Positions 24,643-37,631 of a stretch of DNA of 44,053 nucleotides are shown one piece after another (position 1 is the first letter of the stretch; each line of letters opens with the position of its first letter). The DNA lies in the NCBI GenBank assembly GCA_021846395.1, contig JAJZXB010000012.1, positions 1 through 44,053 on the forward strand, given 5' to 3'. The position numbers were made by a program, and so were the translations under genes. This DNA comes from Thermoplasmata archaeon (GTDB lineage Archaea > Thermoplasmatota > Thermoplasmata > Thermoplasmatales > Thermoplasmataceae). Below the pieces are notes generated by a model, which worked only from the letters and a program-made list of their open reading frames with translations, was not told where the DNA came from and did no database searches.

Positions 24643-24652
24643 ATTTTTGTAT

Positions 24653-24708
24653 TTTAATTCAATATTTAATTTTTTTTATTTTTTTTTGTTTAATTCAATA
24701 TTTAATTT
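24653..24708 (-). promoter_or_regulatory. Duplicated 20-bp element at the Lrp promoter
   Basis: An exact 20-bp repeat (AAATTAAATATTGAATTAAA on the gene strand) occurs at 24653-24672 and 24689-24708, 36 bp apart start to start. The copy nearer the gene covers the position about 25 nt before the ATG and so contains the probable TATA box. The outer copy could be a second promoter or part of an Lrp binding array. Confidence 0.6.
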
Positions 24709-28991: not shown

Positions 28992-29872
28992 TCAAAAGTC
29001 CCAATTGTCAGTGAAGTGAGCCCCCTTCCGCAAGTTTGTCAAGAACTCTGAAACAAGCATGAAACCTCTTTGGGCAAAAATTTCCCTTTCTTCTTTATCA
29101 ATTGGTTCCAAAAAATCGGCATATAAAAGTGGACCCTCTGCGTTTACGTTCAAAAACATGTTTCCTATTCTCTTTAAAGATTCCTGAATCTGTTTTTCCA
29201 TCATAAAAGGTTTAAATGCATTTGCCACCTCTTTTACACCATTTCCGTAATGATCCAATATTGAAACTATGTCATAGGCATCTTTATGTTTGTAGCGATC
29301 TCCAAGCGCAAACCCCTTTGTACCGAGACAGCCAACTACATCTAGCATTTTAAAGTTGACTTCAGTAATGGCGCCATTAGGCATTTCTCCCCTCATATGG
29401 TTACAAAAATTATGCTTTAAACCCAATTCTGCCCCAAACATGGTGCGCGCACGTAGATCGGATTGAATTTCTCTATGGCGATGTTTCTTCCCCTCTCTTC
29501 GTTCCTGAAGCGTGAGAAAATCCACAGTTATATTTCTATAAACATTATCAATCCCCTTGATACTCCTTTCAAATGTGAATTTTTTTTAGGCACTTGTTTC
29601 CACATAGCCCCCTCTATTAATTCCACAATTGTTTGATATTCATTGTCCCCTACAAGCTGTGGATCCACAATGAGATCAATATCGATGGAACCGACGTGTT
29701 TAAAATTGTCTCCTGGAACTTTATGGTTTTCCAATAGCAGAAATGGTACCCACCCTCCAATCAAAACTATTGCTTCTTTATATGGTCTTAGTGTGCGGAT
29801 CAATTCAACAAAAGCATTCTTTGATATTGTAATTAATTGATCTTCAAAGTCGGATGAAAAGCGTGCCTTCAA
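28992..29872 (-). pseudogene. AbiEii-like nucleotidyltransferase toxin, frameshifted
   Basis: Two adjacent frames form one protein of about 293 residues. The first (29528-29872) has the nucleotidyltransferase strand IVLIGGWVPFLLLE and the metal motif HVGSIDIDLIVD. The second (28992-29525) has KHRHREIQSDLRARTMFGAE, LGTKGFALGDRYKHKDAYDI and the rest. The break is in a run of four G residues (29553-29556 on the minus strand); a fifth G would give the continuous reading RGIDNVYRNITVDFL. In AbiE systems this protein is the toxin that modifies tRNA or similar targets. The start is TTG within TTGA, overlapping the antitoxin stop. The 3' end adjoins the tnpB remnant and may be cut short. Could be real inactivation, phase variation, or a sequence error. 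Confidence 0.8.
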
Positions 29873-30951
29873 GAGGCATCTTCCCCTATTGTGTCTCTAT
29901 CAATAAGTTTTTCTGCCTGTTCTCTCCCACGAGCCGGATATGAGAATAGGTCCACATAAAGTTGAATGTCACTAACTACATTTACGCCCCTGATATTTCT
30001 GAAATCCATAAAAATACCATCGTCATAGGGCTCAAATATCCTAATATTGGCTCCAACTTTTGTTGGTTTCAGGTCAAGTTTTTTCACAAAAGCGTCAATA
30101 TCACCTAATAAGTATACCCAGACATTATTATACCGAACAAATGGAGATACCATAGATGCTCCAGCCATTCCTGTTAGAGCATATTTCATATTTAATTCCT
30201 CTGCCACATTGACAACGTTAGATATTATTTCTTCTGGATTTTTTGCAAAAGAGAAAAAACCGGTCGATTTACTCTTTTCAACTGTCCAAATTGAAGCCCA
30301 ATCCTTTAGAAGTCTTTTTGGATCTATAACCTTAATGCTTTTATCCATTTCTCTAGATACATAACCCTTATCTTCAAGTTGATTTATAACAAAATAAACT
30401 CCAGAAGGACTCATCTTACTGATGTTGGCAAGCTCTGTGATCTTCCAGCTGGTTTGCGGAGCATTAAGGAGTGTTCTTATAATTCTCGTCGCTTTGGATG
30501 CAAATATGCCTCTACTGAGCCTCCTCTCTGTTTCCCTTTCAATGTTACTGATGCGATCTATGAGAACTGAATCAAACTTTAGATAGACATCTCCTATTAA
30601 ATCAATATAGCCAATGTTTTCTGAGGCCAAAATATCTCTTGACCTTTTACTAATGTAGGGTGAGGCAAATACTGGATATTTTCCCTTATCATTTCCAATC
30701 AATTTCTTTAGTTGGTAAATGGAGCTCTGGACTATTCTGGGTTCTCCACTGGATTTAACATCAATAAACAGACATTTTTTAATTCTTCCTGTTTTAACTT
30801 TTATTATGATATCAACACAACTCTTCTTGTCAATTGGTACCTCTAACGTTACGTTTTCTAAGGTCATGTTTGGTATTAGAGTGGATAAATTCTTGGTTAA
30901 TTCAGAAATTGTTTCTTGTTCATTCATTGAGTGAAATTTAATAGAATGCAT
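29869..30951 (-). CDS. AbiEi-like type IV antitoxin with N-terminal nuclease-like domain
   Basis: A 360-residue protein of three parts. Residues about 30-135 resemble a restriction-endonuclease-like fold (VDIIIKVKTG, CLFIDVKSSGEP). Residues about 150-205 are a winged helix (ATRIIRTLLNAPQTSW, ELANISKMSPSGVYFVINQL, EDKGYVSREM). The remainder (YALTGMAGASMVSPFVR, VWVYLLGDIDAFVKKL, VVSDIQLYVDLFSYPARG) matches the C-terminal domain of AbiEi-type antitoxins. It should repress its own promoter and counter the nucleotidyltransferase encoded next. A 16-bp palindrome immediately before the ATG is the likely binding site. An in-frame ATG at 30927 is an alternative start. Confidence 0.82.
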   Translation of the reverse strand: MHSIKFHSMNEQETISELTKNLSTLIPNMTLENVTLEVPIDKKSCVDIIIKVKTGRIKKCLFIDVKSSGEPRIVQSSIYQLKKLIGNDKGKYPVFASPYISKRSRDILASENIGYIDLIGDVYLKFDSVLIDRISNIERETERRLSRGIFASKATRIIRTLLNAPQTSWKITELANISKMSPSGVYFVINQLEDKGYVSREMDKSIKVIDPKRLLKDWASIWTVEKSKSTGFFSFAKNPEEIISNVVNVAEELNMKYALTGMAGASMVSPFVRYNNVWVYLLGDIDAFVKKLDLKPTKVGANIRIFEPYDDGIFMDFRNIRGVNVVSDIQLYVDLFSYPARGREQAEKLIDRDTIGEDAS

Positions 30952-32893: not shown

Positions 32894-33021
32894 TGCAGGT
32901 GTTCTGCAAACTGCAATGGCATTTCCATAAATGAATTTGAACTGGAATATTTTGTAACCAATTTTTATAAGATTAATATTATTTGATAAAAAATTCATAT
33001 ATAATAATATTATGCACATAT

Positions 33022-34239
33022 ATGGATTATGACGTGGATGTACTAGTAGCTGGTGGAGGTTTAGCCGGTCTTTCAACCGCTCTGACCGCTGCCAGAAATG
33101 GCTTATCTGTACTTGTTGCTGAACGGGGAGAGTATTCCGGTTCAAAAAATGTCAGTGGGGGAAGGATGTATGTCCATTCACTGAAAAAACTTCTTGGGGA
33201 ACAATTTTCTGACGAATATCTGGAATTGCCCGTTTATAAGGATACATACGACATATATAACGGCGACAGAAAACTGTCATTTTCCTTTGAACAGAAAAAC
33301 AAAAAAAATAGCTACACAATATTGAGATCAAAATTTGACAGATATCTGGCCGGAATTGTTGAGGAATCCGGAGGAACCATTTCATATTCAACAATGGTGA
33401 ATGACATTTCAAGAGAGGAGGATATTGTCAATGTGCATACAGACAGGGGAGACATAAAAACCCCACTTTTAATAGAGGCGGATGGTGTTGGGGCAAACAT
33501 TTCAAGGTTAAATGGCAGAAAACTGGCCCCAAAATACCATATGCTTGGAGTGAAGGAAATTATTGATAAAAAACCAGATCATGCTGAGGCTGAAACGCGT
33601 ACCATACTTGGCCTAACTGACAGTATTAAGGGCGGGGGCTTCGTATATGAAAATAGGGACACAACATCCATAGGATTTACTTTGAAGATAGAGTCCATTC
33701 AGGATGATACAAACACCAGAACAACACCAGATCTTATTGAAGAGTTCAGGGAGAAACTGGGCATAGAGGGTAAAGTTCTTGAATATTCCGCCCATTTAAT
33801 ACCCTATTATGGTTATGACAATTTGCCCCCTGTGAATTATGACAATATACTTGTTGCAGGCGACTCTGCGGGCTTTCTTATAAATGATGGATTTACCATA
33901 AGAGGCATGGATCTTGCAATTGAGTCTGGAATGATTGCAGGCAACGCAGCAAAAAGCATAATAGATTCGAAGGATTATGGAAATACTCAAATATACAAAA
34001 AAATGCTGGATGAATCGTTTATAATGAATGATCTATCCGTGGCAAGACCCATGTTTAATTTATTGAACCAGGACAATATATTCAAAAAATATCCCGGGTT
34101 TATCACGGACTTTCTATCTAGCATGATGGATATAACCGGTGACAATAGAAAGAAACCAAGGGACGTAATGTTTGAGAAAGCCCATGAAAATGACATGAGC
34201 GTGGCTTCTCTTTTAAGGGATGCAGCAAAGGTGATATGA
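33022..34239 (+). CDS. fixC: FixC-like electron-transfer flavoprotein:quinone oxidoreductase
   Basis: 405 residues. The FAD-binding start DVDVLVAGGGLAGLSTALTA and the second FAD motif NILVAGDSAGFLINDGFTIR are clear, with SGGRMYVHSLKKLL and LIEADGVGANISRL between. FixC proteins pass electrons from electron-transfer flavoprotein to quinone at the membrane, with FixX as the iron-sulfur partner, which here follows with an ATGA overlap. ATG at 33022 fits a TATA-like CATATATAATAAT at about 32994-33008; an upstream in-frame extension is unlikely. FixA/FixB (ETF) genes are not in the window. Confidence 0.92.
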   Translation: MDYDVDVLVAGGGLAGLSTALTAARNGLSVLVAERGEYSGSKNVSGGRMYVHSLKKLLGEQFSDEYLELPVYKDTYDIYNGDRKLSFSFEQKNKKNSYTILRSKFDRYLAGIVEESGGTISYSTMVNDISREEDIVNVHTDRGDIKTPLLIEADGVGANISRLNGRKLAPKYHMLGVKEIIDKKPDHAEAETRTILGLTDSIKGGGFVYENRDTTSIGFTLKIESIQDDTNTRTTPDLIEEFREKLGIEGKVLEYSAHLIPYYGYDNLPPVNYDNILVAGDSAGFLINDGFTIRGMDLAIESGMIAGNAAKSIIDSKDYGNTQIYKKMLDESFIMNDLSVARPMFNLLNQDNIFKKYPGFITDFLSSMMDITGDNRKKPRDVMFEKAHENDMSVASLLRDAAKVI

Positions 34240-34505
34240 TGGATCTGTTGAAAAGGCTAGCTTTGAATAAATATGGAACTGGAAATGAGTCACATATAGA
34301 TGTTAATACGGACATATGCAGGACATGCAAGTATAAACCTTGCATAAAGGTTTGCCCGGCTGGAACATATGAACCAGATGAAAAGGAAATTTTAATAGTT
34401 CACTATGAAAGGTGTGTTGAATGCAGTGCCGCTCTTGTTGCATGCCCATTTGGAGCAATAACATTCAAATATCCTGAAAATGGCATAAGCTATACATATG
34501 GATAG
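34236..34505 (+). CDS. fixX: FixX-like ferredoxin partner of FixC
   Basis: 89 residues with CRTCKYKPCIKVCPAGTYEP and YERCVECSAALVACPFGAI. The first motif has four Cys. The second has three: at the position of the third Cys in the usual CxxCxxCxxxCP pattern there is an Ala. It should carry electrons between ETF and FixC, but the second cluster may be a 3Fe-4S form or absent. The start is one of two adjacent ATGs (34236 or 34239). It converges with the following gene, with a gap of 7 nt. Confidence 0.88.
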   Translation: MMDLLKRLALNKYGTGNESHIDVNTDICRTCKYKPCIKVCPAGTYEPDEKEILIVHYERCVECSAALVACPFGAITFKYPENGISYTYG

Positions 34506-34512
34506 GTACGGG

Positions 34513-35904
34513 TCATTTTTTCATTATTTCCATCTTGCAACTGCAGTGTTTAAAACTGCAGGAATTTATTACAAATGATGGGCATAAATCAAGCTTATCG
34601 GGATTGTTGCTTTTAACCGCATCCCTTATATTATTTATCTTATCTCCGCATATATTTATAATTCTGTTAAGGTCGAAGGTAATATCATAGGTCACAACCC
34701 GGTCATCAAGCTTTGGATAAATAACTATGATAATACCCTCCTTTATATTTCTTCTTGCACATATTATCGCCAGTTCAGAATAATAAGTTTCGGGAATGCT
34801 ATTTGGATATTTTGAATTGTTTACCTTTAAAATGAATGGAACAATTGAGCTTTCATCATAAACGTTTTTAATAATGTATTTATCATTGCCATATAAATCC
34901 AGCGTGCTTATTTCATTTTTCCTTGCCCTTTCTGATCCATCTATTCCAAGAATAGATTTTTCTATGGTATCCAGAATGAAGAAGGTTATGTTTTTTCTAT
35001 CATAATTGAAGGTTGAAGAATTGCCAGTTTCCTCCTCATCTCCCCTTATTCTATGATAATATTTTCTTGGGTAAATCAGATCAAAATATCTTAAATCTTC
35101 CTTATCATTGTTATTTTCATAAATTTTCTGCAAATTTTCTTCCATTACTTTATCCTCATGTACAGCCACGGCATTTTTCATGATTTCTTCATCTTTCTGT
35201 TTCAGGGAGCCACATGAACATATATTTTTTTTCTGGAAGACGCATCCGTAATTGTAATAGGAACATCTTGGCAAAACTGAAGGATCATCGTCCGCTAGGC
35301 TTTGCTTAATGATAGATATCCTATTTTTAACTGTATTGATTATGGATTCAGGCTCAATAATCTCTATTTTAAACGCATAAAATTTTGATGAGGATGAATA
35401 AAAAATCAAATAATTAAACCTGTCAGGATTTTTATTGATCACGGAATAAAAAAGAAGTTGCTCTAAATCCGAACTGTAAATGCTGAAAATGTCATTCATA
35501 TTTATTGATTCAGAACCCTTGGTTTTGAATTCTATGACGGAATTGTTGACCATAAAATCAGCCCTTCCAATAACGTTGAGGTTTATATGGCTGCCATTCA
35601 TAATTTCCTCAAATCCTGAAAAACCTGGCAACCTCTCAAACCATTGCCGGGCAATAAAATGTATGGATTCTCCGCCTTTCATACGGGACAGTATTTCAGG
35701 GGGCATTTCTATTTCTCCCATTTTCCTCGAAAAATATGAGTATGCAGGATTGATGATTTCTGTCACATAGAGATAGTCTGGAATTTCAAAATTTTTATTC
35801 GATAGTTTTTCGTATAATATTCTGGAAATATAGGGGTTCTTATTTTCCAGTAATATTGATTTTTTAACAGCCTTCAATATATCCATATTATTACCTATGT
35901 CCAT
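34513..35904 (-). CDS. Cas4/RecB-like PD-(D/E)XK nuclease with duplicated C-terminal half
   Basis: 463 residues. The N-terminal half shows a Cas4-like nuclease: GGESIHFIARQWFERL (with the motif I His), IGRADFMVNNSVIEFKTKG (D ... E-x-K), SDLEQLLFYSVI (the Q-x-x-x-Y motif) and a Cys cluster CSYYNYGCVFQKKNICSC. In the C-terminal half, SELAIICARRNIKEGIIIVI, DITFDLNRIINICGDKINNI, RDAVKSNNPDKLDLC and NSCSFKHCSC run parallel to the first half from its Q-x-x-x-Y helix to its Cys cluster, suggesting an internal duplication in which the second nuclease centre is lost but the Cys ligands remain. No cas1, cas2 or CRISPR array is nearby. The biological role is unknown; DNA end processing is likely. ATG 35886 is an alternative start. 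Confidence 0.75.
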   Translation of the reverse strand: MDIGNNMDILKAVKKSILLENKNPYISRILYEKLSNKNFEIPDYLYVTEIINPAYSYFSRKMGEIEMPPEILSRMKGGESIHFIARQWFERLPGFSGFEEIMNGSHINLNVIGRADFMVNNSVIEFKTKGSESINMNDIFSIYSSDLEQLLFYSVINKNPDRFNYLIFYSSSSKFYAFKIEIIEPESIINTVKNRISIIKQSLADDDPSVLPRCSYYNYGCVFQKKNICSCGSLKQKDEEIMKNAVAVHEDKVMEENLQKIYENNNDKEDLRYFDLIYPRKYYHRIRGDEEETGNSSTFNYDRKNITFFILDTIEKSILGIDGSERARKNEISTLDLYGNDKYIIKNVYDESSIVPFILKVNNSKYPNSIPETYYSELAIICARRNIKEGIIIVIYPKLDDRVVTYDITFDLNRIINICGDKINNIRDAVKSNNPDKLDLCPSFVINSCSFKHCSCKMEIMKK

Positions 35905-35999: not shown

Positions 36000-37631
36000 T
36001 TATATTTCATCAAGCAGGTCTATCCCAATTATGCTGGACGAGTCCTCCAAAATTCTTTTGAATGTTGTCAGTAACTTTATTCTCTTACCCATTTCTGGAT
36101 CGTTAATAATTGGACAATTGAGATAAAAATCGTTAAATGCCTTTGATAAAAGCAGTATATAATTTGCTATTATATCTGGCCTTAAGAAATCAACAGACCC
36201 TTTGAGATAATATGGATATATGTACATAGTCTTTATCAATTTTCTTTCGTATTCATTGTATTCACCGAATGATTCTACATAGCTTTTTGATTTTTTTAGA
36301 ATGCTGCATGCTCTTGCATATGAATACATTATGTATGGGGCAGAATCCCCCTCAAAATTCAACGCCTCCGACCATTTGAATGTTATAGGTTTGTTTGCAT
36401 TAACCTTTATTATGTTGAATCTTATTGATGATGAGGCAATTGCCCTGCTTATTTTACTTATCTGTTCATCACCATATGAAGGCCTTTTAACCCTTATTAT
36501 TTTTACTGATTCGTCCATAGTTTTATCATAAAGGTCGTTAACCGTTACAATTCTTCCCTTTCTTGTTGACATTTTTCCAGACTCCAGGGAAACAAATCCA
36601 TAGAATACGTAATTTATTTTTGACTCAAAATCAAAATAATTTTTTAGCACAAAATCCAGATTGCCTGCATGGTTTTTATGATCCTCCCCGAGAACGTCTA
36701 TTATCCAGTCAAAGTTCTGAGCCTTGAAAAGATGGTATACAATATCCCTTGCAAAGTAAAGTGAAGTTCCATCCGTCCTTGTTAGAAAAATTTTTTTATC
36801 CCCAATAGCCAGATATTTTGCACTGCCCTCAGATTTCAATTCGCTGGATATATCATAAAGCATTTTGTCTACTTCACCATAGAGAATGAAATTGGATTCC
36901 CATACATATGTGGATATTTCTATCCCAAGTTTTTTTAACGATGATTTTATGGAATCAAGCACAATCGATGCCACTTCCTGAATTGATGCTATAAGGTCCT
37001 TGTCTCCATTTTCATACCTTTCGTCAAGCTGTTCTATTTCCTTTTCTATGCCATGGTCGGCATCCATATCTCTGTATATTCTCTGATAACCGTCAAGAAG
37101 GTTTTCCAGATTGGGTTTTTCATTCTTATGGTATCTCATATGTCCCAGATAAAGTGAGATTACCTGCTTGCCGGAATCATTGACAAAATATTGAGTGACT
37201 GCCCGGTATCCATATCTGTCAAGCAATCGGAATATAGAGTCCCCAATAATTGAGTTTCTTATTCTACCAACATGAATTGGCCCGGTGGGATTTGAACTGG
37301 TATGTTCTACCAATACTTTGGATGTGTCCTGAAAAACGTTGGGATACATGGAAAAGTGCTTTATGGACTCATCCATTGATTTAAGCATTTCAACCGGCTT
37401 TATAAAGAAATTTACATAGCTGTTTTTCAATTCTATTTTCTCTATAAACTCATCCCTGACCTCACTCCTGATCCTCATAAGAATGTTTTCAGGGTTTTCC
37501 TTTATTTTAAATATTTTTAAGGTTAAGTCTCCATAATTTTCACTGATTTCAATATCATTTGCATTTATGTTGCCATATAGACCTTTGATTTTTTTTAATA
37601 TGATATCCTTATAGTCATTGAATAATAACAT
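36000..37631 (-). CDS. argS: Arginyl-tRNA synthetase
   Basis: A 543-residue class I aminoacyl-tRNA synthetase. The HIGH motif is in HTSSNPTGPIHVGRIRNSII, the KMSK-type loop is ESGKMSTRKGRIV, and the C-terminal helical anticodon-binding domain ends the protein. The N-terminal additional domain is short. It charges tRNA-Arg. Located 23 nt after the GH15 gene in the same direction, it is probably in one transcript with it. Confidence 0.95.
   Translation of the reverse strand: MLLFNDYKDIILKKIKGLYGNINANDIEISENYGDLTLKIFKIKENPENILMRIRSEVRDEFIEKIELKNSYVNFFIKPVEMLKSMDESIKHFSMYPNVFQDTSKVLVEHTSSNPTGPIHVGRIRNSIIGDSIFRLLDRYGYRAVTQYFVNDSGKQVISLYLGHMRYHKNEKPNLENLLDGYQRIYRDMDADHGIEKEIEQLDERYENGDKDLIASIQEVASIVLDSIKSSLKKLGIEISTYVWESNFILYGEVDKMLYDISSELKSEGSAKYLAIGDKKIFLTRTDGTSLYFARDIVYHLFKAQNFDWIIDVLGEDHKNHAGNLDFVLKNYFDFESKINYVFYGFVSLESGKMSTRKGRIVTVNDLYDKTMDESVKIIRVKRPSYGDEQISKISRAIASSSIRFNIIKVNANKPITFKWSEALNFEGDSAPYIMYSYARACSILKKSKSYVESFGEYNEYERKLIKTMYIYPYYLKGSVDFLRPDIIANYILLLSKAFNDFYLNCPIINDPEMGKRIKLLTTFKRILEDSSSIIGIDLLDEI

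Follow-up and report, generated by a model that had tools for sequence, protein, structure and literature searches.

A tandem Cas4-like protein of Thermoplasmata with one predicted nuclease site and two cysteine clusters

We analysed a 44,053-nt stretch of a contig of a Thermoplasmata archaeon (JAJZXB010000012.1; this whole stretch is referred to below as the window). It encodes a tandem Cas4-like protein composed of two halves that are homologous along their full length, each ending in its own group of cysteines. The N half is predicted to be a Cas4/RecB-family nuclease domain with a full PD-(D/E)XK site, and the C half appears to be a degenerate copy whose catalytic residues have been replaced. 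We are nearly certain of this anatomy (Table 1). As a whole explanation we favour, at a probability of roughly 0.6, a DNA-processing nuclease working outside CRISPR, in which a live N half would be combined with a dead, guiding C half. The family represents an apparently undescribed, ancient branch of Cas4/RecB nucleases in Thermoplasmata, and the arrangement is family-wide, not a local oddity.

Table 1. Features of the tandem Cas4-like gene and its neighbours in the window
Feature	Position	Strand	Remark
Tandem Cas4-like gene	34513..35904	-	463 aa; stop codon included in the coordinates
N half, residues 1-245, predicted Cas4/RecB-type nuclease domain	35170..35904	-	PDB profile matches; phrog_1706
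Catalytic core G78-x3-H82, D116, E125-x-K127, Q149-x3-Y153 (predicted)	35446..35673	-	Conservation in 54 rows
First Cys cluster, C214-x6-C221-x7-C229-x-C231	35212..35265	-	
C half, residues 246-463, predicted inactive copy of the nuclease domain	34516..35169	-	hhalign to N half; catalytic residues replaced
D275-LIYPRKYYHR, C-half equivalent of the VTEIINP...YF segment at the N-terminus	35050..35082	-	Cas4 Cys absent; P279 in 50/54, R280 in 52/54
P356-F-I-L-K360, degenerate ExK	34825..34839	-	Alignment columns, 54 rows
Second Cys cluster, C441-x7-C449-x4-C454-x-C456	34537..34584	-	Four Cys in the last 30 residues
Arginyl-tRNA synthetase (ArgS), context	36000..37631	-	PF00750/PF05746; 95 bp upstream of the nuclease gene
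Small 4Fe-4S ferredoxin-like gene, context	34236..34505	+	PF12838; convergent, 7 bp between stops
FAD oxidoreductase, partner of the ferredoxin	32983-34239	+	Converges on the nuclease gene

The gene, its relatives and the internal repeat

An earlier sequence-only reading of the window had placed the open reading frame at 34513-35904; it is there, but on the minus strand. The gene is present in one copy in the source genome (1.66 Mb, 25 contigs), and its product has an 86% identical homologue in the MAG Thermoplasmata archaeon TL1-4.bin46. Pfam, NCBIfam and the PDB, searched with the window protein as a single sequence, returned no useful match; relatives and profiles were needed. Relatives at E<=0.001 were found in 8 of the 61 nearest genomes, 15/117 genomes of the order, 94/400 of the class and 35/389 of the phylum sample; the latter contained relatives outside the class in G429 and G491 only. 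Two further genomes of the class (G226 and G327, family f11) gave weak, partial matches. Three single-contig genomes of the window's own family (G011, G027 and G096) carry the gene. Genome G092 has two different copies (L014/L117 and L025/L118) with similar neighbours; its contamination is 5%, and two species may have been placed in one bin.

The main alignment (A2) contained 54 proteins: the order contributed 15, and other families of the class 39. From the 80 class carriers outside the order (94 less 14), 41 were used (40 fetched plus L031), picked for genus spread; omission of two contig-end fragments, L038 and L049, left the 39 rows. Identical copies were counted once, and the truncated L008 was retained.

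Half profiles were obtained by splitting the proteins at residue 245. Comparison of the N-half and C-half profiles (54 rows) by hhalign gave an alignment of 214 columns (probability 99.9%, E 4.2e-31). When the halves were aligned separately (54 rows), 205 columns were aligned with a probability of 99.7% and E 3.9e-26, both E values being for one comparison. The reversed C half gave 0.6%, and ten column shuffles gave 0.9% or less. BLASTP of the N half against the C half of the same protein reached E<1e-3 in 30/54 members (best 1.9e-23, L032); with shuffled C halves, the count was 0/54. These results bear out the internal duplication proposed in the sequence-only reading, which had named an HHalign self-alignment as a check. 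That reading had paired residues ~145-240 with the segment from SELAIICARR to CSFKHCSC. The pairing was right, with the correction that the repeat covers whole halves. Structure prediction from 2-row alignments gave a pLDDT of 29 for the full length and 34 for the C half, and these models are meaningless.

The window protein's own halves, compared alone by BLASTP, gave a non-significant E of 1.1, as would be expected if the similarity between halves were due to chance or to convergence around cysteines. The chance of this is negligible in view of the family profiles and their clean controls, the members that are significant on their own, the behaviour of the C-half profile, and the tree. A profile made exclusively from C halves, run over 283 class genomes, gave matches in 60; the extra matches fell mostly on the N halves of those genes, that of the window gene among them (E 3.3e-4, 35197-35394). 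This search of the 283 genomes revealed no free-standing C half except for two candidates: a weak match (4.2e-4) inside an 883-aa frame in G675 and, in G154, a frame of 44 aa at the end of a contig.

In a first, larger tree, the N halves lay on one side (support 88). The C halves were divided between two places, and the single-domain row L143 and two long rows fell among them. A second tree contained 21 halves of each kind, the single-domain row and the long rows L007 and L037 being left out. It separated the N and C sets with a support of 99/98, and the same division appeared in 100% of the 200 bootstrap trees. From this separation we conclude that a single head-to-tail duplication took place before the sampled Thermoplasmata lineages diverged.

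A predicted nuclease domain and its degenerate copy

The N half showed significant homology to solved Cas4 structures. Its profile matched the Cas4 chains 4ic1_A (E 8.5e-10) and 4r5q_A (E 1.1e-4) in the PDB, followed by UvrD-type helicase-nuclease chains, presumably AdnB-like, at insignificant values (E 0.23-1.2); the full-length profile matched 4ic1_A at 2.4e-9. Profile alignment of the N half with 26-29 Cas4 proteins of the order Thermoplasmatales gave a probability of 76-78% and E ~2e-5. Residues 35-273 of the window protein matched phrog_1706, annotated 'CRISPR/Cas system associated' (E 4.9e-8); this model matched 37/54 members, and PADLOC Cas4 models matched up to 23/54. PF12705 (PDDEXK_1) matched 14/54 members at E<=0.1 (best 5.4e-6), the window protein not among them, and those matches whose scores were inspected fell below the gathering score. 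The curated Cas4 models PF01930 (Pfam) and TIGR00372 (NCBIfam) did not match the window protein, and relative L006 scored 18.7 bits against TIGR00372, for which the cut-off is 65.

All elements of the PD-(D/E)XK core of Cas4 (H, D, E-x-K and Q-x3-Y) are present in the N half; the C half has lost them apart from the Lys, at whose position K or R remains. D116, E125, K127, Q149 and Y153 were conserved in 54/54 rows, and G78 and H82 in 53/54, one row being truncated. Judged by this conservation, the N half should be catalytically competent. The single nuclease centre proposed in the sequence-only reading was thus found, with an intact N-half site and replaced residues in the C half.

In the joint alignment of all halves, the C-half positions corresponding to H, D, E, Q and Y were occupied by other residues, in a patterned, non-random way. 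The E125 position held L in 38, I in 8, V in 4, H in 3 and E in 1 of the 54 C halves (L/I/V in 50/54). The K127 position was never lost, being K in 29 and R in 25. At the Q149 position we found E in 38, R in 5, Q in 5, D in 4, L in 1 and K in 1, and at the Y153 position R in 32/54. Since these replacements are themselves conserved, they would reflect selection for something other than cutting. The C half of L037 (6328-6945) is the only one with an E-x-K-like motif (VEVK), and it also has a Cas4-like C-x4-C-x2-C-x5-C cluster; it is perhaps the closest to the ancestral copy, or else convergent.

Direct profile comparison of the C half with Cas4 gave a non-significant probability of 2-4%, and a PDB search with the C-half profile returned nothing significant. 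A weak PF12705 match (E 0.002) was seen in the C half of relative L048 (residues 414-487). The case for a nuclease ancestry of the C half therefore comes from its resemblance to the N half and L143. The latter, from G429 of the same phylum, is a one-domain frame of 227 aa. It resembles the tandem halves in that each half profile matches it (E 1.8e-16 and 1.9e-10, among 84 ORFs). It differs from the tandem protein in having one domain, a Cys at the Cas4 N-terminal position, and an overlap with a Rad51-family gene (E 1.5e-30). This overlap was seen once, on a contig of 4.7 kb from a class represented by one genome in the sample, and hints at a link with recombination. The Cas4-like frame and the Rad51-family gene lie at 3-1677 of L143 (minus strand); a frame upstream resembles, by eye, a uracil-DNA glycosylase into which an intein has been inserted.

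Both cysteine clusters noticed in the sequence-only reading were retained in the homologues, whose cysteines it had suggested surveying. C214, C221, C229 and C231 were present in 54/54 rows, and four C-half cysteines in 51/54; the other three C halves had only three. By column, C441 and C454 were found in 54/54, C449 in 53/54 and C456 in 40/54. Spacing in the N half was C-6-C-7-C-1-C in 51/54, with near variants in 3. The 51 complete C-half clusters comprised 25 with C-7-C-5-C-1-C, 13 with C-7-C-4-C-1-C, 9 with C-4-C-2-C-5-C and 4 others.

According to an excerpt of PMC4176176, of the cysteines that serve as cluster ligands in Cas4, one is N-terminal and three are C-terminal. The tandem family has four C-terminal cysteines in place of this arrangement; the region of the N-terminal Cys held a cysteine in 0/54 N halves and 1/54 C halves. 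When aligned with 4ic1, the family has 'LvnPRR' where Cas4 has 'LVRCPRR', with the Cas4 Cys standing as an insertion. The Cas4/AddB-type cluster assigned in the sequence-only reading must accordingly be revised: the N-terminal Cys is missing from both halves, and a fourth Cys has been added at the C-terminal cluster. Because the rearrangement is common to both halves, it most simply predates the duplication. In the nine members with C-4-C-2-C-5-C, the last three cysteines form C-x2-C-x5-C, the Cas4 spacing, which suggests that a four-ligand site was kept by selection while its ligands moved. We infer that each putative cluster is likelier to be Fe-S than zinc.

Genomic context

Genes running towards the nuclease gene encode an FKBP-type protein, a SpoU methylase, the FAD oxidoreductase and the ferredoxin. 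The last two, which we take to be a FixX/FixC-like pair, adjoin the nuclease gene in 13/15 loci of the window's family. Beyond ArgS lie GH15 and shikimate-pathway genes, and a phosphoribosyltransferase is also among the neighbours in this family. In family f15, the gene usually has a FAD_binding_2 protein on one side and a GNAT acetyltransferase/PRPP synthetase on the other, and an acyl-CoA dehydrogenase is another neighbour. An operon-based clue to function was rejected, since the genes alongside have housekeeping roles and change from lineage to lineage. No conserved repair or cas gene was recognised among the scanned neighbours, and the tandem gene is not adjacent to cas1 or cas2.

No CRISPR array was found in the window, in agreement with the earlier description of the protein as far from any array. 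The only close pair of direct repeats in the window consists of two 29-nt AT-rich copies 36 bp apart (24644-24708), which is not a CRISPR array. An AbiEi_2 type IV antitoxin-like regulator (PF09952, E 2.6e-8) is encoded at 29869-30951 on the minus strand.

Possible role and comparison with known systems

The C half might be mainly a zinc-type nucleic-acid-binding tail, with the clusters serving as structural Zn sites as in CCCH-type fingers. Its commonest spacing contains C-x7-C-x5-C (25/54), which is the CCCH zinc-finger spacing, and its profile weakly matched the CCCH zinc-finger chain 4ii1. However, this match is not significant (E 0.58), the homology between halves spans the whole half (205-214 columns) and not the Cys tail alone, and a Cas4-like spacing occupies the same place in 9/54 members. 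We consider such a tail doubtful. A nuclease of defence or against mobile elements would account for the patchy presence in the order (15/117 genomes) and for weak matches to PADLOC Cas4/DruK models; it is unlikely, given that no defence genes were recognised in the conserved neighbourhoods, that one locus is retained across many species of one lineage, and that one scan of viral contigs with one short peptide pattern found no relative.

A solo-Cas4 acting remotely in CRISPR adaptation, as a supplement to the CRISPR Cas4, would fit a Cas4-related N half in a source genome that has Cas1 and Cas4 on another contig (C20). Cas1 also co-occurred mildly with the gene in the order, being present in 11/15 carriers vs 40/102 non-carriers (p 0.023, uncorrected, relatedness ignored). 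Against this, Cas1 was found in only 10 of the 47 class carriers outside the order with completeness >=85% and was missing from 37/47; four of the 15 order carriers (G001, G006, G092 and G094) had neither Cas1 nor a PF01930 match; and the window lacks an array and the protein the defining N-terminal Cys. NurA showed the same bias in the order (13/15 carriers vs 55/102 non-carriers), as would be expected of clade or completeness effects. We regard a distant CRISPR role as quite improbable. Replacement of the end-resection nuclease NurA by the tandem protein would explain a patchy chromosomal nuclease; it was rejected as extremely improbable because NurA co-occurs with the gene in those 13 of 15 carriers.

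We thus return to a DNA-processing nuclease outside CRISPR, one that probably processes or repairs chromosomal DNA and takes no part in CRISPR adaptation. The N half would be a nuclease that requires metal and acts on single strands or the ends of DNA, and each Cys cluster would staple its own domain. Taking RecC as the analogue, the C half would be a built-in inactive protomer that most likely binds the DNA strand or steers it for its partner and also sets a pseudo-dimer geometry with one cutting site, as the inactive domain of RecC does for RecB.

The tandem family would be a CRISPR-independent relative of Cas4 in which the cluster ligands have moved and one of two copies died yet kept its cysteines. 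The protein separates cluster retention from catalysis, so that the role of a Cas4-type cluster in a non-cutting domain becomes testable. In the literature searched, a duplicated Cas4 of which one half is dead was not described, which is no proof of absence in print; the main text of the Cas4 phylogenomics paper (PMC5704561) contains neither 'duplicat' nor 'Thermoplasma'.

Cas4 (DUF83; SSO0001, 4ic1; Pcal_0546, 4r5q) has the same core order of GxxxH, D, ExK and QxxxY, a C-terminal Cys cluster, and a VTDL-PRR segment that aligns. Unlike Cas4, the tandem protein is fused with a dead second copy, lacks the N-terminal Cys, has an extra C-terminal Cys, is encoded away from cas genes and scores under the curated Cas4 cut-offs. 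Excerpts of PMC4176176 describe Cas4 proteins as monomers, dimers or decamers of dimers. Solo-Cas4, as presented in parts of PMC5704561, is likewise a chromosomal, CRISPR-independent Cas4 relative; according to the same parts, all Cas4 proteins appear active and have four conserved cysteines, unlike the tandem protein. The AddB-AdnB nuclease domains (PF12705, PDDEXK_1) are similarly RecB-like nucleases, and the tandem protein differs from them in having no helicase domain. An excerpt of PMC4625639 describes the TTV1 nucleocapsid protein TP1 as an inactivated Cas4 derivative with a new role; in contrast to the tandem protein, TP1 is a viral nucleocapsid protein from a split gene.

RecC is the comparison behind the guiding role proposed here. 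Its inactive nuclease-like domain forms a hoop for ssDNA and guides it, according to an excerpt of PMC1185551, and is thus a catalytically dead nuclease-fold partner of the active RecB nuclease. We tentatively suggest, as a possible refinement, that the tandem protein is a one-chain, helicase-free counterpart of RecB/RecC, with live and dead Cas4-type domains that each carry a relocated metal cluster. In the dead half, the former metal site might now be a conserved, charged pocket, with E in place of Q, K/R at the ExK Lys and R in place of Tyr; this pocket would take hold of a DNA strand or end and pass it on to the live half. RecC, as portrayed in that excerpt, is a separate subunit of a helicase complex, whereas the tandem protein has both domains in one polypeptide.
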